A stretch of 64,000 nucleotides of DNA from NCBI RefSeq assembly GCF_022170785.1, contig NZ_CP081870.1:2034001-2098000 (forward strand). Reading direction: 5' to 3'. Of this stretch, positions 6,222 through 50,185 are shown in pieces. The stretch is from Rossellomorea marisflavi. Its GTDB lineage: Bacteria > Bacillota > Bacilli > Bacillales > Bacillaceae_B. How positions within the stretch are numbered: position 1 is the first letter of the stretch; each line of letters starts with the position of its first letter. Made by a program: the position numbers and the translations under genes. The notes under the pieces are model-generated. The model was given only the letters and a program-made list of their open reading frames with translations. It had not been told where the DNA came from and made no database searches.

Positions 6222-8018
6222 ATGGAACCGATACCTGCACTTAGCCCCAAGGATCAGCGAAAGATCTTTTTCCGCCTGATGGGGTATGCAACGCCGCATC
6301 GAAAGACGATTTATTTGGCTTTCTTTTTACTCTTATTAACAACAATCGGGGATGTGTTCGGTCCCATTCTCATAAAGGTATTCATCGATGACTATCTGAC
6401 ACCGGGAGTTTTCCCATATGGCCCACTAGTAGCCCTGGGCACGGGTTATCTCCTCATTCAACTGGGGAACGTCGTGGTCTCTTACTTTCAACTGCTGAAG
6501 TTCCAAGAAATCGCCCTCAAGATCATCCAGCAGCTAAGGGTCGATGTGTTCACCAAAGTCCAAGGCCTCGGGATGAGATATTTTGATCATACTCCTGCAG
6601 GCAGCATTGTCTCGAGGGTCACCAATGATACGGAAGCGATAAAGGATATGTTCGTAAGCGTCCTCGCTTCTTTCATCCAGGGAGGATTCTTGATCATCGG
6701 TATCTTCATTGCCATGTTTGTCCTCAATGCAAAGCTCGCAGTCTTTTGTTTGTTCATCCTCCCTGTATTGATCTGGATCATGAGCCTGTACAGGAAGTAT
6801 AGCTCCGTATTTTATCAAGATATGAGGGAGAGACTGAGCCAGTTGAACGCAAAGCTGAGTGAATCTCTCTCCGGGATGTCCATCATTCAAATATTCAGGC
6901 AGGAAAAGCGGATGAGGGAAGAATTCGGAGAAACCAATGAACAGCACTTCAATGCGAATATGAGAAATATCAAAGTGGATGGTCTTCTTCTGAGACCGGC
7001 TATCGACCTGGTATATGCAGCGGCCCTGATGGTGGTATTGACCTATTTCGGGGTGGCCTCATGGGATCGTCCGATTGAAATCGGGGTTTTGTATGCATTT
7101 GTGAACTATCTGGATCGTTTCTTTGAACCCGTCAACCAGATCATGATGAGGCTCAGTCTGTTCCAGCAGGCCATCATCGCCTCGAACAGGGTGTTCACCC
7201 TTCTGGATGAACAAGAATTGAATCCTTCCCAGGGAAAAGACGGGCAATCGTTGAAAATCGGCGATGGGAAGATTGTGTTTGATAACGTATCTTTCTCGTA
7301 TGACGGGAAGCAGGATGTGTTGAAGAACATCTCGTTTACAGCAAACCCTGGGGAAACTGTAGCCCTCGTCGGTCATACGGGAAGTGGAAAGAGCTCGATT
7401 ATCAATCTTTTGATGAGATTCTATGAATTCGAGCGGGGAAGGATCTTGATTGACGGAGAGAGCATCAAGTCATACCCCGTTCAAGAAATAAGAAGAAAGC
7501 TCGGGCTCGTCTTACAAGATCCGTTTCTATTCTATGGTGATGTGAAAACGAATATCCGGTTGTACAATGAGCAATTAAGTGATGAAGAGGTAAAAGCGGC
7601 AGCGGAATTCGTCCAGGCAGACAGCTTTATCCGAAACCTACCTCAGGGGTATGATGATCCTGTGGTGGAAAGAGGCTCGACGTTCTCAAGCGGTCAGCGG
7701 CAGCTTATCGCCTTTGCACGCACGATTGCCACCAAACCGAAAATCCTTATATTGGATGAAGCGACGGCGAATATTGATACGGAAACGGAAGAAGCCATCC
7801 AGGGAGCACTCTCCAAGATGAGAGAAGGACGCACGACCATTGCCATTGCCCACAGACTCTCCACTATTCAAGATGCCGATCTGATCCTTGTCCTCCATAA
7901 AGGGGAGATCGTCGAGAGGGGTACCCATAAGGAATTACTGGACCGCAGGGGAATCTATCACAAAATGTATCTGCTCCAGAATGGGATGGTTGAAGGAATG
8001 GAAGATGCCATGATCTGA
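6222..8018 (+). CDS. Heterodimeric ABC exporter, catalytic subunit (BmrD/YfiC-like)
   Basis: Start placed at ATG 6222 because GGAGGGTGA lies 6 bases upstream; an ATG at 6207 overlapping the previous gene has no such site. The 598-residue half-transporter has six transmembrane helices (about residues 20-305), then an ATPase domain with Walker A GHTGSGKSS, Q-loop LVLQDPF, Walker B ILILDEATANID with the catalytic Glu, and His switch IAHRLSTI. Its signature is FSSGQRQ rather than LSGGQ, which complements the Asp-substituted Walker B of the upstream subunit: one canonical and one degenerate ATP site. Length fits YfiC (about 604) better than the 673-residue BmrD. A terminator follows. Confidence 0.87.
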   Translation: MEPIPALSPKDQRKIFFRLMGYATPHRKTIYLAFFLLLLTTIGDVFGPILIKVFIDDYLTPGVFPYGPLVALGTGYLLIQLGNVVVSYFQLLKFQEIALKIIQQLRVDVFTKVQGLGMRYFDHTPAGSIVSRVTNDTEAIKDMFVSVLASFIQGGFLIIGIFIAMFVLNAKLAVFCLFILPVLIWIMSLYRKYSSVFYQDMRERLSQLNAKLSESLSGMSIIQIFRQEKRMREEFGETNEQHFNANMRNIKVDGLLLRPAIDLVYAAALMVVLTYFGVASWDRPIEIGVLYAFVNYLDRFFEPVNQIMMRLSLFQQAIIASNRVFTLLDEQELNPSQGKDGQSLKIGDGKIVFDNVSFSYDGKQDVLKNISFTANPGETVALVGHTGSGKSSIINLLMRFYEFERGRILIDGESIKSYPVQEIRRKLGLVLQDPFLFYGDVKTNIRLYNEQLSDEEVKAAAEFVQADSFIRNLPQGYDDPVVERGSTFSSGQRQLIAFARTIATKPKILILDEATANIDTETEEAIQGALSKMREGRTTIAIAHRLSTIQDADLILVLHKGEIVERGTHKELLDRRGIYHKMYLLQNGMVEGMEDAMI

Positions 8019-38603: not shown

Positions 38604-39587
38604 ATGAGCATCAAAGATATTCAACTCACAACGGCTGAGATTGCTGCCCTTTGGACCACATATATGAAATGTACGGCGATGGATTGCTTTTACCAGCATT
38701 TCCTCATACATATGGAGGATGACGCCATAAGGGATATTCTCGTTCAACACGCAGAGGCCAATACAGGGTGGATCCAGGAGTTAAAGACCATATTCGAATG
38801 TGAAGGGTTTCCTGTGCCTAAGGGATTTTCATCTGGTGATGTAGATCTGACTGTCCCGCCTCTCTTCACCGATATCTTCGTATTGAGCTTTGTGTACAGA
38901 GGAGGGCAAGTGACCAACGAACATTTCACTTCCTTGCTAGAGACCGTGGCTCGAGCCGATGTGCTGTCCTTTTTTGAGAATTCGTTGGCAAAAAGTGTGA
39001 AGCTCTATAAGTCATCGTTGAATCTTATGCTTGAAAAAGGTGTGTATGACCGTCCTCCGAAGATCCCCTATCCGGATCGTGTTGGGTTTGTAAAAGAGAA
39101 CCCTTCCTTGATCGGTCAGATTCTTGGTGAAAACCGGCCGTTAAATGTACTCGAATTGAGCGAACTGTTTTTCATCATTGAGCGTAACTGCATCGGCCTT
39201 GTCCTATTAAAGGGTTTCCTGCAGGTCGTAAAGGACCGGGAAGTAAGTGACTATTTGAAAAAAGGGAAGAAGCTCAGTGAAAAACAGATCACCGCGTTCA
39301 ACAAGATCATTATGGAAGATGATGCATTCCCGACGTATCCGGTAACAATGGAAGTAACGAATTCCACTGAATCACCATTTTCCGATAAGCTTCTTGTGTT
39401 CTTCATTACAAGCTCGAATGCAGTGGGACTAAGTACGATGTGTCACGCCATTACCATGTCCACAAGAAAGGACCTCGGAGTACAATTCGCCATGTTCGTG
39501 ACCGAGATATTAAAGTTTGGGTCTACTGGATTGGATCTATTCGTAAGAAGAGGATGGATGGAAGAGCCGCCGCAAAAGAAAAAATAA
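38604..39587 (+). CDS. DUF3231 family protein
   Basis: A 327-residue all-helical protein made of two similar ferritin-like halves (TTAEIAALWTTYMKCTAMDCF at about 8-28 and LNVLELSELFFIIERNCIGL at about 180-200), the DUF3231 pattern seen in many Bacillus genomes. Some relatives are reported as spore-coat or stress-related proteins, but no activity is established. AAAGGAGCAC precedes ATG. Terminator just behind. A single-gene unit. Confidence 0.78.
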   Translation: MSIKDIQLTTAEIAALWTTYMKCTAMDCFYQHFLIHMEDDAIRDILVQHAEANTGWIQELKTIFECEGFPVPKGFSSGDVDLTVPPLFTDIFVLSFVYRGGQVTNEHFTSLLETVARADVLSFFENSLAKSVKLYKSSLNLMLEKGVYDRPPKIPYPDRVGFVKENPSLIGQILGENRPLNVLELSELFFIIERNCIGLVLLKGFLQVVKDREVSDYLKKGKKLSEKQITAFNKIIMEDDAFPTYPVTMEVTNSTESPFSDKLLVFFITSSNAVGLSTMCHAITMSTRKDLGVQFAMFVTEILKFGSTGLDLFVRRGWMEEPPQKKK

Positions 39588-39603
39588 TCGGAATGATTGG
39601 TTC

Positions 39604-39631
39604 AACCCTCTTTCAGTGGAAAGGGGGTTTT
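39604..39631 (+). terminator. Terminator after the DUF3231 gene
   Basis: AACCCTCTTTC-agtg-GAAAGGGGGTTTT hairpin. Confidence 0.75.
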
Positions 39632-39754
39632 ATGCTACTATAAATATATCCGGTCCATCTTGAAACCCTACTTGATGCGCAGAGTGATTGAGCCTCATTC
39701 AGATTTCGCATCAGGCTGGACAGATGCACATCATACATATCTGGGGGAGCTGTC

Positions 39755-40447
39755 ATGCTGGTAATCATCTATCCATTTAAATTATTCTCTGTTTCCCATA
39801 TCACCGCGATCTTGTTGACACTTGTCGGAATCCTGTTCCTATTCCTGGTCCGTAACAAAATAGGACACAAAGGAAAAAGGGTCCTTAAAATCTGTCTTAT
39901 CGCCAGTCTATTCCTATCTGAATTGACGTTCCAATTGTGGTATCTCATCAAAGGGGAATGGACAATTGAAACGAATCTTCCTTTCCAGCTATGCTCTCTG
40001 TCGATTTACCTTTGTGTGATCATGCTATTGACCAAAAGCTACAGGCTATTTGAGGTAACCTACTTTGCAAGCATGGCGGGTGCGCTCATTGCCATGATTA
40101 CTCCCGAGCTTTTTTATGGTTTTCCTCATATAAGGTACTTTCAATTCTTCATTGCCCATGCGGCAATCATTCTGTCTGCCTTCTACATGATCTGGATGGA
40201 AGGATTCCACGTCAGATTCACTTCCGTTTTAAGGGCGTTTATTTCCCTCAACGCCATCGCAGTGGTGGTGTACTTCATCGATCGGGTCACGGGCGCCAAT
40301 TATATGTTCCTTGCGCATAAACCATACAATTTAAGTCCGATCGACTACCTGGGTCCGTATCCGTGGTATCTCCTATCTTTGGAATTTGTTTCTTTTTTTG
40401 TTTTTCTGCTTTTGTACCAACCTTTCTTTCTTTATAATAAAAGGTGA
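39755..40447 (+). CDS. ywaF: YwaF/TIGR02206 family integral membrane protein
   Basis: A 230-residue protein with six to seven transmembrane helices and the family motif NLPFQLCSLSIYL together with LGPYPWYLLSLEF near the C-terminus. It matches YwaF (about 231 residues) of B. subtilis; the family has no known function. CTGGGGGAGCTG lies upstream of the ATG. Transcribed in the same direction as the PlsY-like operon 68 bases downstream, but with separate leader DNA. Confidence 0.8.
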   Translation: MLVIIYPFKLFSVSHITAILLTLVGILFLFLVRNKIGHKGKRVLKICLIASLFLSELTFQLWYLIKGEWTIETNLPFQLCSLSIYLCVIMLLTKSYRLFEVTYFASMAGALIAMITPELFYGFPHIRYFQFFIAHAAIILSAFYMIWMEGFHVRFTSVLRAFISLNAIAVVVYFIDRVTGANYMFLAHKPYNLSPIDYLGPYPWYLLSLEFVSFFVFLLLYQPFFLYNKR

Positions 40448-40515
40448 ATTTGTTAAAATAGGAAACTTTTTCTTTTACTCTTCGTCTACTATTATGTAAA
40501 GAAAGGCGTTAAATC

Positions 40516-41082
40516 ATGAATTTTATCATCGGAATCACTGTAGTGGTTCTTTCCTACTTAGCAGGGGGGATCATGGGTGCCCACTATTCGGTACGGGGAT
40601 CTGGCGTTGATATTCGGCAGGAAGGAAGCGGAAACGTCGGGGCCACCAATGCTCTAAGGGTCTCAGGCAGAAAGGCATTTGTCCTGGCTGTGATCGTGGA
40701 TATCGCAAAAGTAATTGCCACCTTATTCATTGTGAGTGCAATGACAGACGGAAATATGTATTTGATTGGTTCGTCATTCTTTTTAATAATCGGTCACTTG
40801 TTCCCCTTTCAACTGGGATTTCACGGAGGGAAAGGGGTGGTCGTCTACTTGGCTGCCTCCTTATTTTTATCCCCTCTCGCCATTGCCGGTTTCATCATGT
40901 TGATGGGGATAGGCTATTTCGCTTTGAGGAAATACAAGGTCGCAGGCTTCATCGCCATGACCTCCATACCCGTCACTTCCTATTTGAAGGGTGACCCCAC
41001 AGAGATATCGCTCTCATTGGCAGGACTATTCATAGTGGTAATGCTCATGCATTTGAAACCATCACATCATGTAAAAGCGTAG
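40516..41082 (+). CDS. PlsY-family acyl-phosphate:glycerol-3-phosphate acyltransferase homologue
   Basis: A 188-residue protein with five transmembrane helices and the three PlsY motifs: GSGNVGATNALRVSGRKA (about 36-53, motif 1), GHLFPFQLGFHGGKGVVVYL (about 94-113, motif 2, glycerol-phosphate site) and the third near HLKPSHH. PlsY moves an acyl group from acyl-phosphate to glycerol-3-phosphate to form lysophosphatidic acid. The housekeeping plsY of Bacillus is usually next to parE/parC; this copy instead leads an operon with an acyltransferase-aminotransferase fusion and an LtaS-like gene, so it is likely a specialised paralogue. AAAGAAAGGCG precedes ATG. Confidence 0.82.
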   Translation: MNFIIGITVVVLSYLAGGIMGAHYSVRGSGVDIRQEGSGNVGATNALRVSGRKAFVLAVIVDIAKVIATLFIVSAMTDGNMYLIGSSFFLIIGHLFPFQLGFHGGKGVVVYLAASLFLSPLAIAGFIMLMGIGYFALRKYKVAGFIAMTSIPVTSYLKGDPTEISLSLAGLFIVVMLMHLKPSHHVKA

Positions 41083-41094
41083 GAGGTAATCAGA

Positions 41095-42705
41095 ATGGAA
41101 AGCCATTCTCTCGTCTATAAAGTGGCAACTGAAAAAGAAGAGATGGAGCAGATTAACCGGTTGAATTATCGTACATTCGTAGAAGAAATTCCTCAGCACA
41201 CATCCAATGAGGAGAAGGCCCTCGTGGACCGTTTCCATGACGAGAATACATATATCATTGCCAAATGGGGCAGTGAGGTTGTGGGCATGATCGCCCTTAG
41301 GAGCAATCGCCCTTACTCCCTTGACGGCAAGATCGAGGATCTAGATCGATTCTTACCAAAGGGTTCAAGCACCTGTGAAATCCGCCTTCTATCGGTGAAA
41401 GAAGAATTCAGGAGTACAAGGGTCTTCTTTTCCCTTTGCGATCAGCTCGTAACTCATTGTCTCGACCATGGATATGATATGGCCCTCATATCGGGTACCG
41501 TGAGACAGCTGAAACTCTATAAGAGAATGGGATTCATTCCCTTTGGTGAACGGGTTGGAAGTGGGGATGCCGTCTATCAGCCTATGTATCTTACTAAAGA
41601 AAGCTTTGAATCATCGACAAAAGCATTCATCCGGATGATGGAACGAAAGAACCGTGTGAGGGAGCTGTCATTTCTTCCTGGCCCTGTGCCCATGAGAAAG
41701 AAGGTTATGGATGCTTTCGAGGATGCGACGGTATCCCATCGTAATATAGAATTCATTGAGAACATGGACGAAGTCTGCTTGAAATTGAAGAAACTTGTAA
41801 ATGCAAACCATGTACAGGTTGCGGTAGGTACGGGCACTCTGTCTAATGATATGGTAGCTGCCCAGCTTTCAACCCTTCCCGGACCAGGTTTGATTTTATC
41901 GAACGGTGAATTTGGATACCGTCTTCAGGATCATGCAGACCGCTTTGGTCTGGAGTACACCACCATTTCGAAAGAGTGGGGACAACCAATCTCGTCTGAA
42001 GAAGTGGAAGGGATTCTGAAGCAGAATAGTGAAATCAAATGGATATGGACGGTACACTGTGAAACATCGACAGGGTTTGTCTATGATGTGGAGAGTCTCT
42101 CTGACCTGTCGGTGGGTTATGGTGTACACCTGTGCATCGACGCGTGCAGTTCGGTCGGAATCATTCCCTCGGATTTCGGCCGTGCATACCTTGCCACCAC
42201 TGTGAGCGGCAAGGGGATCGGGGCTTATCCAGGACTTGCGATCGTATTCCACCGAGACCCGATCGAACCCGACAAACGTCTCCCGCGTTATCTGGACATT
42301 GGCCAGTACGATAAGAATGCAAGCATCCCCTTTACTCACTCTTCCAACCTGGTGAACGCCCTGAATACGGCGCTGGATGGGGTGGATACAGCTTCCAGGC
42401 CAATAAGAATGGAACAGCTGAGGCGCCATTTGATCAGCGAAGGTTACCAAGTGATGGGTGAAGACACCTATTCACCGGGAATCGTTACGGTGGCATTACC
42501 AGCGGAAATCCCTTCAAGGGAATTTGGGGATAAATGCCGGAAGAGGGGGTTGATCCTGAGTTATGAAAGCGACTACCTCATGAAGCGGAATTGGATTCAG
42601 CTTGCCCTGATGGGAAGTTATCAGGAATCTGAAATCAACGAAGCTCTTGGTCGGATCAAGTCATGCATGGATACGTATCACAGGGAGTTTGTTTCCCATG
42701 GGTGA
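41095..42705 (+). CDS. Fusion: GNAT/FeeM-like N-acyltransferase plus class V aminotransferase
   Basis: A 536-residue two-enzyme protein. Residues about 8-175 are a GNAT fold; NYRTFVEEIPQH, CEIRLLSVKEEFR and LYKRMGFIPFG recall acyl-ACP-using synthases of the FeeM/autoinducer type. Residues about 190-530 are a class V PLP enzyme close to alanine-glyoxylate or 2-aminoethylphosphonate aminotransferases: GTGTLSND, HCETSTG, DACSSVG and the PLP Lys373 in TTVSGKGIGAYPG. It may make an amine and N-acylate it. Starts 12 bases after the PlsY-like gene and overlaps the LtaS-like gene by 8 bases, hence one operon. Substrates unknown. Confidence 0.8.
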   Translation: MESHSLVYKVATEKEEMEQINRLNYRTFVEEIPQHTSNEEKALVDRFHDENTYIIAKWGSEVVGMIALRSNRPYSLDGKIEDLDRFLPKGSSTCEIRLLSVKEEFRSTRVFFSLCDQLVTHCLDHGYDMALISGTVRQLKLYKRMGFIPFGERVGSGDAVYQPMYLTKESFESSTKAFIRMMERKNRVRELSFLPGPVPMRKKVMDAFEDATVSHRNIEFIENMDEVCLKLKKLVNANHVQVAVGTGTLSNDMVAAQLSTLPGPGLILSNGEFGYRLQDHADRFGLEYTTISKEWGQPISSEEVEGILKQNSEIKWIWTVHCETSTGFVYDVESLSDLSVGYGVHLCIDACSSVGIIPSDFGRAYLATTVSGKGIGAYPGLAIVFHRDPIEPDKRLPRYLDIGQYDKNASIPFTHSSNLVNALNTALDGVDTASRPIRMEQLRRHLISEGYQVMGEDTYSPGIVTVALPAEIPSREFGDKCRKRGLILSYESDYLMKRNWIQLALMGSYQESEINEALGRIKSCMDTYHREFVSHG

Positions 42706-44560
42706 TCGAAAGAGTACGATAAATGATTGGAAGTTTACCTTCATCCCGGTTCTCATCCCGGGATTCGCTTTATGGATCAAGGCCGTCATCGTGCTTTTCG
42801 TCGGTTTTTCCCTGCACATCGACAATCTCCATGATGCACTGCTTGTGCTCATCAATCCGATCGCATCGATTCTCCTCCTCTTGGGAGTAAGCTTTTACTT
42901 CACTAAAAAAATCAGTCGCATCACCATCTTTATCGTCATGATCATTGCGAGTGGAATTCTGTATGGAGACCTTCTTTATTACCGATTTTACTCCGATTAT
43001 GTGACGGTACCTATCCTGTTTCAGTTCAAGAACGTTGGAGGCATCGGACCCAGTACATTCGAATTGATCAGCGGCTGGGACATCCTCTTCTTCCTGGATC
43101 TGATTGTGGTCGGTGTTTATCTCTGGAAGACTCGGGCTATGAGGGTGGATGTTCAAAGGAAGCAAAAAGCAGGGTACATCCTTGGGAGTGTCCTCGTTTT
43201 ACTTGTCACGATCGGAATCGGTCTGCTGAAGTCGCCCTATATGTTCGCTGAATCCTATGATAGGGAGCAGATGGTGAAGGCGATCGGCCCTTATAATTAT
43301 CATCTTTATGACATTGGCATCGCAGCAGGCAAGCCGTTTTCAAGGACACTTGCCACTAAGGCAGATACAAAGGAAACCATTCGTTACATCGACTCCACCG
43401 ACAAAGAAGAATCCGACTTGTTCGGAATTGCAAAAGGCAAAAATCTTGTTCTGGTCAGTATGGAATCCACCCAGAATTTCGTGATCGGTCAAAAGGTTAA
43501 TGGAAAAGAGATTACTCCCTTTCTCAATTCGTTGATCGAGGATAGCTTTTATTTCAGTCAAATCTATGATCAAACGGCCCAAGGAAAAACCTCTGATTCA
43601 GAATTCATGGTGGATAATGGATTATATCCCCTTGCCAGCGGGTCTACCTTCGTGCAACGACCTGAAAATACCTATAGGGCCCTATCGCACCTTTTGGATG
43701 AACAGGAGGATTACTACACGGCTGTTTTCCACGGGAACGATAAAACTTTCTGGAATCGGGACAAGATGTACGAAGCACTGGGTTATGACCGATTCTATTC
43801 CAAAGACGAATATGAAGTAACGGATGATAATTCCGTGAATTACGGCATCAAAGATATTCCATTCTTTCAACAGTCCATGGATTATGTAGAAGATCTTCCT
43901 CAACCTTTTTACGCCAGGTTCCTCATGCTCACGAATCACTTTCCGTTTCTTCTTGATGAAGAGGATCAATTCATAGAAGAAGCGGATACGAGTGAAGGAG
44001 TAGTCAATCGCTATGTGACGACCGTAAGATATGAAGACGAAGCGATCAAGAATCTCATTGAGGATTTCAAGAAGAAGGGACTCTACGATGACACAGTCTT
44101 TGTTTTTTACGGTGATCATTATGGAATCTCCGAAAAGTATGAAACGGGTGCCTTCGAACTCCTTGGTATGGAGGACACCGTCATCAATCATATGAAGCTT
44201 CAACAGGTGCCTCTCATCATCCACGTTTCGGGTGAGGAAGGACGAACAATCGATACGCTTGGGGGAGAAATCGATATCAGACCGACGATTCTTCATTTAA
44301 TGGGGATCGAATCACAGTCGAATCTGTCTTTCGGGCATAATCTCTTCACCAGGGTGGAAAATCACCCGGTGATCTTTAGGAATGGTGATTTTATCACTGA
44401 AAAATTCCTTTACAAAAACAACGTTTGCTACAATAGGAAATCTGAAGAAAGCGAAAACACGAGCAAATGTGATCCTTACAAAGAAATTGTAAGGAAGGAA
44501 CTTGGGCTATCTGATGATATTATCTATGGTGATCTGCTGCGGTTCATAAAAGCGGAATAA
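42698..44560 (+). CDS. LTA synthase family sulfatase-fold membrane enzyme
   Basis: Start at ATG 42698, 10 bases after GGGAG, within the end of the fusion gene; the open frame extends upstream without a better site. About 620 residues: five transmembrane helices (about 12-170), a linker with SRTLATKA, then an extracellular sulfatase-type domain. The catalytic Thr298 lies in QGKTSDSEF; metal ligands are seen in LVSMESTQNF (Glu) and FYGDHYG (Asp, His). LtaS uses phosphatidylglycerol to build or prime glycerol-phosphate chains. The housekeeping LtaS genes are not usually linked to acyltransferases, so a special role is likely. Confidence 0.88.
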   Translation: MGDRKSTINDWKFTFIPVLIPGFALWIKAVIVLFVGFSLHIDNLHDALLVLINPIASILLLLGVSFYFTKKISRITIFIVMIIASGILYGDLLYYRFYSDYVTVPILFQFKNVGGIGPSTFELISGWDILFFLDLIVVGVYLWKTRAMRVDVQRKQKAGYILGSVLVLLVTIGIGLLKSPYMFAESYDREQMVKAIGPYNYHLYDIGIAAGKPFSRTLATKADTKETIRYIDSTDKEESDLFGIAKGKNLVLVSMESTQNFVIGQKVNGKEITPFLNSLIEDSFYFSQIYDQTAQGKTSDSEFMVDNGLYPLASGSTFVQRPENTYRALSHLLDEQEDYYTAVFHGNDKTFWNRDKMYEALGYDRFYSKDEYEVTDDNSVNYGIKDIPFFQQSMDYVEDLPQPFYARFLMLTNHFPFLLDEEDQFIEEADTSEGVVNRYVTTVRYEDEAIKNLIEDFKKKGLYDDTVFVFYGDHYGISEKYETGAFELLGMEDTVINHMKLQQVPLIIHVSGEEGRTIDTLGGEIDIRPTILHLMGIESQSNLSFGHNLFTRVENHPVIFRNGDFITEKFLYKNNVCYNRKSEESENTSKCDPYKEIVRKELGLSDDIIYGDLLRFIKAE

Positions 44561-45036
44561 CGTATAAAGCTCTTTCCAATGTGGAGAGAGCTTTTACTAT
44601 ATTACTGGACTTTGTGCATATGATAGGGGAAGTGGCTCATTCGAAGCAAAACATCACAATCTTGTTTTCATGTTAGCGTGACTTTTACTCCTTATAGTTA
44701 AACGATTGCATACCCAAGTCGAATAGCATTGATTGGATTGGAGCGGTAGGGATCTGATTCCTGGGAAAATGAAGGCTTGACATGCTCTCCGCGGAAAGCA
44801 AAGCGCTGCTTTTACAGCGGGCACTGTATTTAGCCGTCGACTTTCCTATTACCAAGGTGAACATGCCCAAGAATAAGAAACGTTCACCTATCAAATACAG
44901 CCATTCTGTTAACGATCAGGGAGGTTAGGAAGAGATTTGTCGAAAAATGAAGGAATTTCCATGCGCCACAACGAATAGATTAATTAATAGAACCCGCATC
45001 GTACAGAGCGAGTCTTAAACTTTACCAGGAGGTCCT
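44561..45036. other. Intergenic region with terminator and degenerate repeat
   Basis: A terminator-like hairpin at 44566-44595 (AAAGCTCTTTCC/GGAGAGAGCTTTT) ends the operon. Around 44785-44825 the DNA reads CTCTCCGCGGAAAGCAAAGC and continues GCTGCTTTTACAGCGGGC, similar to a dispersed palindromic intergenic repeat that I recall from Bacillus chromosomes. No gene supported. AGGAGGTCCT just before 45037 is the next ribosome binding site. Confidence 0.45.
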
Positions 45037-45924
45037 ATGGAAAATTCAGTAGACTATTTGCCAATAAACCATAAAAAAATTCCAATGAAAGAAATCATCA
45101 AACGGGGGATCTTCATTACCCTTGGTGCCATTATCATGGCTGTAGGGCTGGAAATCTTCCTCGTTCCAAACCAGGTCGTAGACGGAGGGATCGTCGGCAT
45201 ATCCATTATGCTTGCCCATATTACAGGCTTCAAGTTGGGGCTATTTATCTTCATCCTGAACATCCCCTTTTTCTTCGTTGGATACAAACAAATCGGTAAA
45301 ACGTTTGCCCTCTCCACCTTATACGGCATTGCCGTGTTATCAGCATTTACCACCTTCCTTCATCCTGTACCCGCCCTGACAAGCGATGTAATGCTCGCTA
45401 CCTTATTCGGGGGAGTCGTTCTTGGAATCGGTGTCGGGATGGTCATCCGCTATGGAGGATCCCTTGATGGTACAGAAATACTCGCCATCCTCTTTACAAA
45501 ACGTCTACCGTTTTCAGTCGGTGAAATTATCATGTTCATCAATCTCTTTATATTGGCCAGTGCCGGCTTTGTGTTCAGTTGGGACCGGGCCATGTATTCC
45601 CTCCTTGCGTATTTTGTAGCCTTCAAGATGATTGACATCACCATCAAAGGGCTCGATGAGTCCAAATCCGTTTGGATCATAAGCGATAATTATCAAAAAA
45701 TCGGTGATGCCCTCCTTTCAAGACTTGGCAGGGGAGTCACCTATCTGTCCGGGGAAGGTGCCTTTTCAGGTGACGATAAAAAAGTGATCTTCTGCGTCAT
45801 CACAAGACTTGAAGAGGCAAAACTGAAAGATATCGTTTCGGAACACGATCCCACCGCGTTCCTTGCCATCGCTGATATCGCAGAAGTAAAGGGTGGAAGA
45901 TTCAAAAAGAAGGCGATTCATTAA
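45037..45924 (+). CDS. YitT family membrane protein (DUF161/DUF2179)
   Basis: A 295-residue protein. The N-terminal two thirds hold five to six transmembrane helices with GLEIFLVPNQVVDGGIVGIS and GGSLDGTEILAI, followed by a cytoplasmic DUF2179 domain (about 215-285, GDDKKVIFCVITRLEE). B. subtilis has several YitT-type paralogues, with unclear transport function. ATG 45037 follows AGGAGG. It stands alone. Confidence 0.87.
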   Translation: MENSVDYLPINHKKIPMKEIIKRGIFITLGAIIMAVGLEIFLVPNQVVDGGIVGISIMLAHITGFKLGLFIFILNIPFFFVGYKQIGKTFALSTLYGIAVLSAFTTFLHPVPALTSDVMLATLFGGVVLGIGVGMVIRYGGSLDGTEILAILFTKRLPFSVGEIIMFINLFILASAGFVFSWDRAMYSLLAYFVAFKMIDITIKGLDESKSVWIISDNYQKIGDALLSRLGRGVTYLSGEGAFSGDDKKVIFCVITRLEEAKLKDIVSEHDPTAFLAIADIAEVKGGRFKKKAIH

Positions 45925-46023
45925 TTCACAACTTCGACCAAAATTCTTATTGCCCAGTGCCCCTCTTAAATCGTAAACTATATAAGTCTTACTTATTATG
46001 TAGTAATAGAGGAGAACTGACAT

Positions 46024-46842
46024 ATGGAATGGTTGACACTGTTGAAAGCTCTAATTCTTGGAATGGTCGAGGGATTGACCGAATTTGCCCCCGTTTCTTC
46101 CACTGGACACCTGATCGTAGTGGATGACCTGATTATCAAATCACAGGAGATACTGGGCAAATATCCGGCTAATACATTTAAAGTCGTAGTGCAGTTGGGA
46201 TCCATCCTTGCCGTTGTGATTGTATTCAGAGATCGATTCATCGAGATGCTCGGTTTAAGAAGAAAAAAAGAAAAAACACATACATTAAAGCTCAGTCACA
46301 TCATCGTTGGCCTTTTGCCAGCCATGGTCCTCGGTCTATTATTCGACGACTTTATCGATGAACATTTATTTTCCCTTAAAACGGTTCTCATCGGCCTTGC
46401 AGCGGGATCAATCCTGATGATAGCCGCCGATATGTTTCGCCCAAAGGTTCCCGTTATCGAGACCGTCGACCAACTGACCTATAAAAAAGCAATCTTGGTC
46501 GGCCTAATGCAGTGCATCGCCCTTTGGCCTGGATTCTCACGATCGGGTTCAACGATCTCTGCCGGAGTCCTCTTCGGTCTCAGCTACAGGGCAGCTTCTG
46601 ACTTCACGTTCATCATGGCCGTACCAATCATGGCAGGAGCGAGCGGGATTTCCTTATTGAAGAACTGGATGTATATGACGCCGGAATTTGCCCCTTTCCT
46701 CATCACCGGATTCATTAGTGCATTCATCTTTGCCTACTTATCGATCAGATTCTTCTTAACGGTCATCAGCCGTATCAAGCTTATTCCTTTCGCCATCTAT
46801 AGGTTGGTCCTAGTGGCGGTCATTGTGATTTTTTTCATGTAA
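46024..46842 (+). CDS. uppP: Undecaprenyl-diphosphatase
   Basis: A 272-residue polytopic membrane protein (BacA/UppP). Catalytic motifs are intact: GMVEGLTEFAPVSSTGHL (about 14-31, the ExxxE-type site with Ser/His) and GFSRSGSTISAGVLFGL (about 172-188). It removes one phosphate from undecaprenyl pyrophosphate so the lipid carrier of peptidoglycan and teichoic acid synthesis is recycled, and gives bacitracin tolerance. AGAGGAGAAC precedes ATG; palindromic terminator follows. Confidence 0.95.
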   Translation: MEWLTLLKALILGMVEGLTEFAPVSSTGHLIVVDDLIIKSQEILGKYPANTFKVVVQLGSILAVVIVFRDRFIEMLGLRRKKEKTHTLKLSHIIVGLLPAMVLGLLFDDFIDEHLFSLKTVLIGLAAGSILMIAADMFRPKVPVIETVDQLTYKKAILVGLMQCIALWPGFSRSGSTISAGVLFGLSYRAASDFTFIMAVPIMAGASGISLLKNWMYMTPEFAPFLITGFISAFIFAYLSIRFFLTVISRIKLIPFAIYRLVLVAVIVIFFM

Positions 46843-46851
46843 ATACTTAAC

Positions 46852-46878
46852 AAAAAAACTGCCTAGGCAGTTTTTTTT
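46852..46878. terminator. Terminator after uppP
   Basis: AAAAACTGCCTAGGCAGTTTTT, a perfect palindrome followed by a T run. Confidence 0.9.
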
Positions 46879-46959
46879 ATAAAGAGGGGAATACAGTAAT
46901 CCTCTTTACAGTTGGATTATTTTACCTTAAACTAGTTTGATAGATATGAGGGGGTACGA

Positions 46960-47850
46960 ATGATGATTACATTTCAACAGTTGACTCAGAAAGAGGCTGA
47001 GGAAATTGCTTATTCATGGAAGTACGAAGGTATGTATTCATTCTATGATATGACAGAAGATGAAGAAGACCTGCTCGAATTCACAGATGCTCACACCAGG
47101 GGAGAGCACGTTTTTTCCTCGCATGTAAATGGGGAGCTGATTGGATTTCTTAGCTTGGATGTTCTGGATGGGATGATCGATATCGGTCTTGGACTTAAAC
47201 CGGATTGGACAGGAAAAGGGAAAGGACGTGGATTTTTACAGTCCGCCATTTCGTTTATCCAGTCTCACTACACGTTTGATGCGTTGACCCTCTCGGTGGC
47301 GTCATTCAATCAAAGGGCCATATCCCTTTATTCTCATGTTGGCTTTGTACTGAATGGAAGCTTTGTTCAGAGAACAAACGGGGGAGAGTACGAGTTTATC
47401 AACATGATTTTGCCACCCCATACCGGAGTTATAGTAACCAGGGACTTTGACCAATCAAGATTGATGGAAATTCAAGAAGTATATCATTCCGTCGGGTGGA
47501 ATAAGCATTCTTTGGACGTAATACTTGAGATCTATCGAAAGAGTAATGTTTTCAGTATGGTGTATGTGGACGGACGGGTAAGGGGCATGGGAAGAGCGTT
47601 ATCAGACGGGGTTTTCAACGCAGCCATTTATGATGTGGTGACCCACATGGATGTTCAACAACAGGGATTGGGAGCACGCATAATGGACGATTTGCTTGAC
47701 CAACTTGCGCCCGTTTCGTGTGTTCATCTGATTGCGACGACAGGAAATGAAGGATTTTATTTAAAGCAAGGACTGTCCCCACTGAAAACAGGTATGGCCA
47801 GGTATAGAAATGAGAAACTTGAAAAGGAGTACCTCATAAAAGAAAAATAA
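46960..47850 (+). CDS. Tandem GNAT acetyltransferase
   Basis: A 296-residue protein with two GNAT domains. The first (about 1-148) has an acetyl-CoA loop WTGKGKGRGFL; the second (about 155-288) has QQQGLGARIMDDLL. They could act on different substrates, or one may be structural. GAGGGGG lies before ATG 46960 (or 46963). No neighbour gives a hint of the substrate. Confidence 0.83.
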   Translation: MMITFQQLTQKEAEEIAYSWKYEGMYSFYDMTEDEEDLLEFTDAHTRGEHVFSSHVNGELIGFLSLDVLDGMIDIGLGLKPDWTGKGKGRGFLQSAISFIQSHYTFDALTLSVASFNQRAISLYSHVGFVLNGSFVQRTNGGEYEFINMILPPHTGVIVTRDFDQSRLMEIQEVYHSVGWNKHSLDVILEIYRKSNVFSMVYVDGRVRGMGRALSDGVFNAAIYDVVTHMDVQQQGLGARIMDDLLDQLAPVSCVHLIATTGNEGFYLKQGLSPLKTGMARYRNEKLEKEYLIKEK

Positions 47851-47872
47851 GCACCGGAGGATACAGTGCTTA

Positions 47873-48106
47873 TCAGATGATTTGATCCTTTTTGGAGGAC
47901 GGGCTGTTCAATTCCATTTTTTGAAGCTCAAGCTTCATTTTCTCCGTTTCAAGAACAAAGTTTTCATGTTTCATTTGTTCGAGCTTGAGCTGATCTTCAA
48001 GCATTTTTTGTTTATACTTTGTTTGTTTTGTAAAATGATCTGAGATGATTGCAATGATCGGTATGGCAAACACCATGATTACTGCGATTGTGCCGGTCAT
48101 ATCCAT
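47873..48106 (-). CDS. Small membrane protein with coiled-coil tail
   Basis: A 77-residue protein from ATG 48106 with GAAAGGAG upstream. One transmembrane helix (about 6-22), then a Lys/Glu/Met/Leu-rich tail (KMLEDQLKLEQMKHENFVLE and on to about residue 66) with heptad spacing typical of a coiled coil. The layout recalls PspB-like membrane adaptors, but no family is recognised. Upstream at 48149-48165 an imperfect dyad (ACTACTccgtatAGTAGAC) could be a regulator site. Gene converges with the GNAT gene after 22 bases. Confidence 0.65.
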   Translation of the reverse strand: MDMTGTIAVIMVFAIPIIAIISDHFTKQTKYKQKMLEDQLKLEQMKHENFVLETEKMKLELQKMELNSPSSKKDQII

Positions 48107-48293
48107 TTCTCCTTTCGGCTTTTTCTTCCGTTATCAAGAGTATACCAGACTACTCCGTATAGTAGACAGTGGTTTCATGTATTTCTACGAATCAAAAGCA
48201 GTCTTGGTTTCATAATTTATAAGTCACCCTGAACTTTTCCTGCTAATTTCATGATATGCTAGTACTAAAAATTAGAGAATAGTGAGGACATGT

Positions 48294-48968
48294 ATGCGAT
48301 TGAAAAAAATGATACCCAATATGTTCACCCTTGGGAATCTGTACTGTGGTTTTTTATCAATAGGTTTTGCTGCCAGCGGTCAGTTTAAGAATGCCGCCGT
48401 GTTGATCATTATCGGCATGATGCTCGACAGTATGGACGGAAGACTTGCCAGGATGCTGAACGCCGACAGTGAGCTAGGAAAAGAATTGGACTCATTGGCG
48501 GATATCGTGACGTTCGGTGTGGCTCCTTCTTTCCTTGTGTATTATACTTCTTTTTACCATTATGGGTTGCTCGGTTTCATTGTTGCCGGATTGTTCCCCT
48601 TGTTTGGCGGATATCGCCTTGCCAGATTCAATACCAGTCCAAAAAAAGCATCTCTCCATTATTTTGTCGGGGTCCCGATCACCGCTGCCGGTGGAATCAT
48701 GGCCATATTGACATTGTTCGGATCGATGATACCGAATATCGTCATTACCGTGATTTTCACGGCCATGTGTTTCTTGATGGTGAGCAGGATCCGCATCCCG
48801 AGTTTAAAAGAGGTTCCTCTGCCGAAGTACGGGACGATTGTAACCATCTTTCTAGGAGCCATGCTATATGTCATCTATAAAGGTACGTATGAGCAATTCC
48901 CTTACCTTATCTATATCGCGACTCCACTCTATATCGCCTATCTCGCCTACAAATTTGTAAAAAGATGA
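48294..48968 (+). CDS. pssA: CDP-diacylglycerol-serine O-phosphatidyltransferase
   Basis: Start at ATG 48294, 5-6 bases after GTGAGGA; the ORF may extend to GTG 48282. A 224-residue membrane enzyme with the CDP-alcohol phosphotransferase signature (DSMDGRLARML, then ELGKELDSLAD; DG-x2-AR-x8-G-x3-D-x3-D) and about seven helices. It makes phosphatidylserine, the precursor of phosphatidylethanolamine. In B. subtilis pssA is followed by ybfM and psd; here it is a lone gene followed by a terminator. Confidence 0.93.
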   Translation: MRLKKMIPNMFTLGNLYCGFLSIGFAASGQFKNAAVLIIIGMMLDSMDGRLARMLNADSELGKELDSLADIVTFGVAPSFLVYYTSFYHYGLLGFIVAGLFPLFGGYRLARFNTSPKKASLHYFVGVPITAAGGIMAILTLFGSMIPNIVITVIFTAMCFLMVSRIRIPSLKEVPLPKYGTIVTIFLGAMLYVIYKGTYEQFPYLIYIATPLYIAYLAYKFVKR

Positions 48969-48973
48969 AGAAG

Positions 48974-49006
48974 AAAGAGCATGATCCCCGGATCATGCTC
49001 TTTTTT
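48974..49006. terminator. Bidirectional terminator between pssA and chrA
   Basis: AAAGAGCATGATCC-cc-GGATCATGCTCTTTT, a near-perfect palindrome shared by convergent genes. Confidence 0.9.
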
Positions 49007-50185
49007 CTATAAAAATAGTGAACCGGCAACAATTCCGGTCACAACGATGAACCATGGAGGAAGCTTCCAAAACATAAGCATGCTGAAGAGAATGGCAGCC
49101 ATGCCGAAATGAAAGGGAGACGTTATGGAACTCGTCCAAATGGGATCATAGAATGCAGAGATCAATATCCCGACTACACCAGCATTTACTCCCATTAAAA
49201 CTCCGTTCATCCCGGGACTTCTCCTTAGGGCATTCCAGAAGGGAAGGGCTCCGAAGATGAGAAGGAAAGCAGGTAGGAAAATGGCGATTGTCGCCAATAA
49301 AGCATATTCCCATCCGCCAATCGCTCCTCCAAGGAACGCAGCAAATGTAAAGAGAGGACCTGGGACTGCCTGTGCAGCACCATACCCCGCCAAAAATTCC
49401 TGACCGGATATGAGACCGGATGGAACCAATTCTCTTTCCAGTAGTGGAAGGACAACATGCCCCCCACCGAATACCAATGCTCCTGCACGGTAGAAGCTAT
49501 CGAATACCGTCACCGCCATGGTTGAGGTGGCTTCTTTTAATAGTGGAAGCCCAGCCAATAATACGAAGAAGAGAACAAGGCATACGGTCCCGAATGTTTT
49601 ACTGATGGGGAACTGTGAGTGTGTGTGCTGTTTAGTATGCTCGTCGTGTTTCCTATAAAGTAGGAAGCCACATACTCCGGCAAGGATGATGACGGTAACC
49701 TGAGAAAAGGCTGATCCCCATAATAAAGTGAAAAGAATAGCCAAAAGGGCAATCCCTTTCCTGGTTAAGTCAGGGGTAAGTTTAGAGGACATTCCGATTA
49801 TGGCATGAGCAACAACTGCCACAGCAACGATCTTAAGACCTTTTAGCCACCCCGCATCACTTACGCCCGTGTTTCCAAGGAAGATAGCAAATAGCGTTAA
49901 AACGATTACAGAGGGAAGTGTGAATCCTATGAAGGAGATGATCCCCCCGAATTTCCCACCTTTAAGAATTCCGATTCCGATCCCAACCTGGCTGCTGGCG
50001 GGGCCGGGGAGGAACTGACAAAGGGCAACTAGTTCCGAATACGTTTTTTCATCGATCCATTTCTTTTTTCTCACATACTCTTCATGGAAATAACCCAGAT
50101 GGGCGATCGGACCGCCAAATGAAGTCAAACCAAGTCTGGTAGAGATCAGTAATAGTTCAAGCCAAGTCACGATTTTAGATTTCAT
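49007..50185 (-). CDS. chrA: Chromate transporter, long (two-domain) ChrA
   Basis: A 392-residue CHR-superfamily membrane protein. Start at ATG 50185 (GAGGTGATAAGGA upstream); the frame extends to GTG 50197. Two homologous halves of about 190 residues are seen: the N-terminal half has TSFGGPIAHLGYFHEEYV and LCQFLPGPASSQVG, the C-terminal half has FGGGHVVLPLLERELV and YGAAQAVPGPLFTFAAFLGG. ChrA effluxes chromate (in others it may carry sulfate-like anions) driven by membrane potential. It is in an operon with the PadR regulator just upstream. Confidence 0.92.
   Translation of the reverse strand: MKSKIVTWLELLLISTRLGLTSFGGPIAHLGYFHEEYVRKKKWIDEKTYSELVALCQFLPGPASSQVGIGIGILKGGKFGGIISFIGFTLPSVIVLTLFAIFLGNTGVSDAGWLKGLKIVAVAVVAHAIIGMSSKLTPDLTRKGIALLAILFTLLWGSAFSQVTVIILAGVCGFLLYRKHDEHTKQHTHSQFPISKTFGTVCLVLFFVLLAGLPLLKEATSTMAVTVFDSFYRAGALVFGGGHVVLPLLERELVPSGLISGQEFLAGYGAAQAVPGPLFTFAAFLGGAIGGWEYALLATIAIFLPAFLLIFGALPFWNALRRSPGMNGVLMGVNAGVVGILISAFYDPIWTSSITSPFHFGMAAILFSMLMFWKLPPWFIVVTGIVAGSLFL

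Follow-up and report, generated by a model that had tools for sequence, protein, structure and literature searches.

Why should a bacterium carry a second, divergent member of the PlsY acyltransferase family directly before a protein in which an N-acyltransferase domain is joined to an aminotransferase fold? The question is raised by a locus of Rossellomorea marisflavi, in a stretch of 64,000 nucleotides (contig NZ_CP081870.1 of assembly GCF_022170785.1, positions 2,034,001 to 2,098,000; hereafter, the window), where three intact genes follow one another on the plus strand: plsY2, the gene of the fusion protein, and a gene for a homologue of the lipoteichoic acid (LTA) synthase LtaS. An earlier note on this DNA had placed the genes in the same interval (40516-44560; Table 1), in one direction with a 12-base gap and then an 8-base overlap, which the coordinates confirm, and had taken them for a dedicated pathway to an amino- or N-acyl-modified lipid or to a lipid-anchored polymer at the surface. 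An N-acyl-lipid pathway stays the best inference, but its core shifts from three genes to two, since LtaS is missing from 19 of 72 loci; a lipid-anchored surface polymer is possible, and no finding here points toward it. We tentatively propose, giving the idea somewhat less than an even chance, that an amino lipid acylated on both N and O is made by two enzymes, PlsY2 and the fusion, with serinol phosphate as the likeliest backbone.

Gene order and distribution

The locus was compared across a set of 72, comprising the window and 71 others, nearly all from Bacillales and one from Exiguobacterium, with some near-duplicates among them (e.g., L033 and the window itself). In 70 of these, a PlsY frame lay directly upstream of the fusion, and the genomes of the two loci with no adjacent PlsY (L064 and L067) hold a second PlsY elsewhere. 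An LtaS frame occurred in 53, mostly directly downstream and in one case as a remnant (L092). An earlier count by clusters of open reading frames (ORFs) had given 65 for PlsY and 52 for LtaS; PlsY was undercounted there since overlapping frames hid it. In a sample of the order, 82 of 397 genomes matched the fusion; in 17 the match was confined to the aminotransferase domain, and with these excluded 65 genomes have the fusion. In all 65, PlsY2 was the gene immediately before it, on the same strand and at a distance of 1-285 bases. Using a PlsY2 profile built from 31 paired copies, many of them out of the same 397 genomes, we obtained matches at E 1e-44 or better in 97 genomes; both genes were present in 65, the fusion only in none, PlsY2 only in 32 and neither in 300 (Fisher p 1e-50, a value that ignores kinship). 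The adjacency of PlsY2 and the fusion is far above chance, and the conserved core of the locus is these two genes. According to the earlier note, synteny confined to one strain, or a PlsY that was the sole copy in its genome, would speak against a dedicated pathway; neither condition applies, as the pairing holds throughout the fusion genomes of the order sample, and the host genome has two genes with the PlsY domain (PF02660), the other of which scores 189.9 bits.

Within the genus Rossellomorea, 34 of 36 genomes gave a fusion match and 33 carry the gene, the match in G006 (L215) being a gutted remnant that starts at 7992 between plsY2 and ltaS with its middle gone, a natural loss. Among the 33 carriers, the fusion is in two pieces in G035 and G019 and has one stop in G005. 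A further 24 loci included 21 with the fusion (with an internal stop in L165 and L177), two of which (L125 and L126) belong to a second class, and PlsY was found upstream in 12 of 19 fusion loci from Bacilli outgroups (L164 is from the same genome as L043 in the set of 72). In the second class, the fusion was present in 9 of 82 genomes, with PlsY directly upstream in all nine and no LtaS within five genes; the PlsY of L125 (G797) has an internal stop, and the fusion of G1113 is in two pieces. The split fusions of G035 (G035:C1:809287-810850) and G1113 (G1113:C79:11725-13292) break at similar places inside the aminotransferase domain, around residues 293 and 322, owing to either a frameshift or a natural split. 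To judge from names, there are further carriers of the fusion in Vicinamibacterales, Verrucomicrobia, Pedosphaera, Catellatospora and one Desulfitobacteriia genome. In L176 (G888) and similar genomes, a PhnW-like domain lies in an ORF of 600 amino acids (aa), a type excluded from the fusion counts, and is flanked in L176 by CDP-OH_P_transf and NTP_transferase genes; by appearance, this is a PntC-like phosphonate set.

Domains and active-site residues

In the fusion protein, a FeeM-like domain (~aa 1-180) is followed by a class V aminotransferase fold (~aa 189-530). By both Pfam model (PF21926, 45 bits; cut-off 27) and fold (first-ranked structural match, FeeM 2g0b), the former is of the FeeM N-acyl synthase type, and its Glu95, Arg97 and Arg106 are invariant. 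The latter scores 29.8 bits against Aminotran_5 (cut-off 21.5) and has the fold and core motif residues of class V aminotransferases together with the lysine for pyridoxal phosphate (PLP), Lys373, that the earlier note had pointed out. That note had also suggested comparing the fusion with FeeM and PhnW/AGT. The first likeness was borne out by 2g0b; the second went less far, as the fusion fails the PhnW model TIGR03301 (136.1 bits vs. a cut-off of 360.8) and has a near-invariant Gln, Gln502, aligned to the Arg that PhnW and AGT carry (1m32 and 7e7g). We take this C-terminal Arg of PhnW/AGT to be substrate-binding. The alignments covered part of each set, 37 of 69 usable fusion sequences and 31 of 81 PlsY sequences.

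PlsY2 scores 103.8 bits against PF02660 (cut-off 24.1) and fails the PlsY equivalog model TIGR00023 (76.4 bits vs. 137.2). In Aquifex PlsY, whose numbering is used here (PDB chain numbering is one higher), Ser35, Arg45, Lys104 and Asn180 contact the phosphate of glycerol 3-phosphate (G3P), and Ser142 and His177 its 2-OH, according to the structural study PMC5700162. The PlsY motifs had been called intact throughout; in the PlsY2 of the window, Ser35, Arg45, Lys104 and His177 are indeed kept, but Gly stands in place of Ser142 and Pro in place of Asn180, and no residue corresponds to Glu189, so that the full G3P pocket is incomplete (four of the six contacts). Among 82 paired copies, Ser35 is kept in 82, Arg45 in 80, Lys104 in 81 and His177 in 79, and position 142 is occupied by Gly (73), Met (7), Ala (1) or Leu (1) and never by Ser. 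The same position is Ser in 20 of 20 housekeeping copies, housekeeping PlsY being the top-scoring PF02660 copy of each genome. These make up 20 of 25 further rows; the remaining five have Gly142 and are of the paired type, two (L207 and L208) being already among the 82 and three coming from genomes that lost the fusion. A motif filter had removed 15 sequences from the Ser142 count, of which 12 were later aligned; the other three were two paired copies of the second class and a duplicate. Genomes of one family contain yet another PlsY paralogue (L217-L221), which has Met at this position in the five copies aligned and a neighbour of 284-285 aa. Kept phosphate contacts and a changed position 142 are what would be expected of an enzyme that holds a phosphate and accepts another group, such as an amide, at carbon 2.

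The LtaS homologue has a sulfatase domain (PF00884, 143.2 bits; cut-off 25) and fails the LtaS equivalog model NF053595 (655.7 bits vs. 970); it scores 370.5 bits against the processed LTA synthase 2w8d and 172.1 bits against the LTA primase 4uop. The genome encodes four PF00884 proteins in all, and the two paralogues closest to this LtaS homologue share 40% identity with it. The active-site Glu, His345, Trp352, Arg354, His414, Asp473 and His474 are kept in 52 of 52 LtaS loci, where the nucleophile is Thr in 46 (in the window, Thr298, as the earlier note had it) and Ser in six; the catalytic roles are presumably those assigned in S. aureus. Since 19 of 72 loci and all nine second-class loci lack it, LtaS is an optional add-on to the core of PlsY2 and the fusion. 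Loci that lack it have no conserved replacement gene, their next genes being mostly unrelated between families.

The proposed lipid route and its alternatives

From the gene order, co-occurrence, domain identities, kept catalytic-type residues and changed substrate-contact residues computed above, we infer the substrates, the order of the steps and the role of LtaS. The PlsY partner suggests an acceptor resembling G3P, and the presence of an aminotransferase domain on the same polypeptide suggests that the amine is produced in place; conversion of dihydroxyacetone phosphate (DHAP) to serinol phosphate would unite the two. The aminotransferase-fold domain would make a G3P-like amino compound, most likely by this conversion, and the FeeM-like domain of the same chain would N-acylate it, probably from acyl-acyl carrier protein. 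PlsY2, using acyl-phosphate, would then O-acylate the free CH2OH, and the product would be an amide analogue of phosphatidic acid. LtaS, where present, would act outside the membrane, perhaps by taking glycerol phosphate from phosphatidylglycerol and placing it on the derived lipid.

Parts of this route have precedents. DHAP is converted to serinol phosphate by RtxA (PMC3222319) and Cj1437 (PMC11800397), and as a slow side activity by PSAT1 (PMC9283133); the RtxA N-domain and Cj1437 share with the fusion the proposed reaction, whose product is here proposed to serve a lipid. The combination of an N-acyltransferase of this superfamily with an O-acyltransferase is a layout of aminolipid synthesis (PMC11631085), as in OlsB/OlsA and GlsB/GlsA, where GNAT-type N-acylation precedes O-acylation (PMC11631085, PMC10666787). 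In contrast to those systems, the O-acyltransferase here is PlsY-type where theirs is PlsC-like, so that no PlsC partner is present, and the amino compound is probably made within the same polypeptide. With FeeM, other N-acyl amino acid synthases and acyl-homoserine lactone (AHL) synthases, the fusion shares the Pfam domain, top structural match and invariant residues given above, but it is joined to a class V aminotransferase fold and paired with a PlsY. Likewise, PlsY2 shares the domain and four contacts of the PlsY that acts with PlsX in G3P acylation, but differs from the housekeeping enzyme in the replaced 2-OH contact, a shortened end and its coexistence with a higher-scoring PlsY. In Gemella, Cohen et al. 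2017 reportedly identified an N-acyl serinol synthase linked to an aminotransferase, with both activities in one gene, and we know of no PlsY partner for it. Gemella and N-acyl serinols are mentioned in reviews (PMC10666787, PMC12594153), one of which speculates that hosts may acylate N-acyl serinols into phospholipid-like lipids (PMC12594153). Our literature search, limited to open-licence papers, found no report of bacteria doing so and no description of this gene set, which does not prove absence.

A more specific form of the proposal, in which the pair makes a membrane phospholipid on serinol (2-aminopropanediol) phosphate with an amide at position 2, i.e., a hybrid of glycerolipid and sphingolipid, in many Bacillales, Exiguobacterium and the second class, with the fusion in other phyla as well, is doubtful. 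If true, the membranes of many Gram-positive bacteria would contain a lipid whose backbone carries both an ester and an amide, made by a repurposed PlsY, PlsY chemistry would reach past G3P, and a function would be assigned to a large protein family so far labelled just aminotransferases or GNATs. It would also be relevant to lipidomics, to host-receptor-active bacterial N-acyl amides and to the alkali resistance of membranes. Amides are hydrolysed more slowly than esters.

Several observations count against the two-enzyme lipid route. Loss of the Arg of PhnW/AGT leaves the amino donor unexplained, and the domain could catalyse a reaction other than transamination. Seven of the 19 Bacilli outgroup loci have the fusion without an adjacent PlsY, although their genomes hold two to three PlsY genes each (G900 has two, one of them weak), and in three of the 36 Rossellomorea genomes PlsY2 is retained but no intact fusion is left: G001 with LtaS, G022 with PlsY2 only, and G006. 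From the 32 genomes of the order sample that have PlsY2 only, we took 20 stretches, of which one (L272) proved to hold a housekeeping PlsY copy next to the gene of a glycerol-3-phosphate dehydrogenase. Position 142 is Gly in 17 of the 19 remaining lone copies, and this Gly therefore marks the PlsY2 subfamily rather than partnership with the fusion. Other paralogues have lost Ser142 too, the 12 filtered copies having Ser in five, Met in five, Val in one and Gly in one (the non-adjacent PlsY of G014). Since, according to Table 2 of PMC5700162, position 142 is Ser in 52.6%, Ala in 33.0% and Gly in 5.2% of 7,288 homologues, and an S142A mutant retains 32% activity, the change of Ser142 is by itself not decisive. 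Asn180, which lies where the C-terminal tails are short and difficult to align, is Asn in 3 of 51 paired copies with LtaS and in 14 of 31 without it. His177 is lost in 9 of 19 lone copies vs. 3 of 82 paired ones, and Lys104 in 6 of 19 lone copies. As the lone copies cluster in few families and the comparison ignores kinship, it does no more than suggest that the active site of PlsY2 is kept mainly beside the fusion. No neighbour was common to all 20 stretches; several genomes of one family have a gene for an M23 peptidase downstream of the lone PlsY2.

Alternatively, the fusion could make a free N-acyl amide (an N-acyl serinol or N-acyl amino acid) serving as a signal or surfactant, with PlsY2 as an accessory G3P acyltransferase that does no more than supply or balance acyl flux. 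Free N-acyl amino acids are the products of FeeM-type enzymes, bacterial N-acyl serinols are on record (PMC12594153, PMC10666787), and the genomes that retain PlsY2 without an intact fusion would fit. However, the unbroken adjacency in the order sample, the altered 2-OH contact and the greater decay of lone active sites (uncorrected for kinship) argue against this explanation, which we consider rather improbable. It is also conceivable, if improbable, that the pair makes a two-step aminolipid like the ornithine and glycine lipids, on an amino acid, amino alcohol or aminophosphonate instead of serinol phosphate. Against this stand the low PhnW score, the Gln in place of Arg, and the phosphate clamp of Ser35, Arg45 and Lys104 that PlsY2 retains. 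Aminoethylphosphonate made by the cell was considered as the amine and rejected: the genome gave no match to the model of phosphoenolpyruvate mutase, so that a home-made supply is not evident.

That the three genes together build a special lipid anchor for LTA, with LtaS as polymerase, which was the polymer option of the earlier note, we regard as decidedly unlikely. The frequent presence of LtaS directly downstream with its catalytic-type residues kept would agree with it, as would a search of the host genome for UgtP, in which no protein exceeded the cut-off of 500 bits and the best was a 158-bit glycosyltransferase. Yet 19 of 72 loci and nine of nine second-class loci do without LtaS, and UgtP-like matches (E 1e-80) did not track the cassette, occurring in 6 of 34 genomes with the fusion and LtaS (the LtaS of three, G020, G028 and G031, being confirmed separately), 4 of 19 with the fusion and no LtaS, and 8 of 27 without an intact fusion. 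With no clear pattern there, we rejected the cassette as an LTA-anchor substitute for a missing UgtP. Finally, an inherited neighbourhood without shared function is very improbable, for although fusion, PlsY2 and LtaS have correlated protein distances (0.92-0.94, computed without a species-tree control), as any co-inherited genes would, the pair persists while its flanks vary between families, and presence of the two genes is correlated across the order.

The locus and its surroundings

Table 1. Features at and next to the locus, in positions of the window
Feature	Positions	Strand	Remarks
plsY2, second divergent PlsY-family acyltransferase	40516-41082	+	188 aa; PF02660
Fusion, FeeM/AHL-synthase-like GNAT and class V PLP aminotransferase fold	41095-42705	+	536 aa
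LtaS-family enzyme, optional third gene	42698-44560	+	620 aa from ATG 42698
Terminator-like hairpin directly 3' of the LtaS stop	44562-44597	+	Folding energy, T-rich 3' side
TMEM164/TIGR02206 integral membrane acyltransferase gene	39755-40447	+	TIGR02206 174 bits, cut-off 75

For LtaS the ATG start was used, the TTG at 42647 (637-aa frame) being a mechanical ORF only. The segment 44560-44620 folds at -20.3 kcal/mol (z -4.91 vs. 200 shuffles), and since the stop of LtaS is followed by this strong hairpin, whose 3' side is rich in T, the transcription unit probably ends there; a terminator-consensus scan did not list the hairpin. A promoter scan of 39500-49200 found 19 vs. 18.7 expected, and we make no promoter claim. 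An Rfam search of 39000-46100 for regulatory RNA and a PADLOC run on the three proteins gave no match. The host genome is 4.3 Mb in size, and its fusion is 99.6-100% identical to that of Rossellomorea marisflavi JCM 11544. Downstream, at 45037-48968, lie genes of the YitT family, UppP/BacA and phosphatidylserine synthase, which are membrane-related and outside the conserved set. The TMEM164/TIGR02206 gene ends 68 bases upstream of plsY2 and precedes it in 18 of 72 loci, and is possibly an extra member of the unit in Rossellomorea and a few relatives. A gene of this type also precedes the cassette in Cytobacillus spongiae (L128), where the locus lies on a 690-kb replicon.

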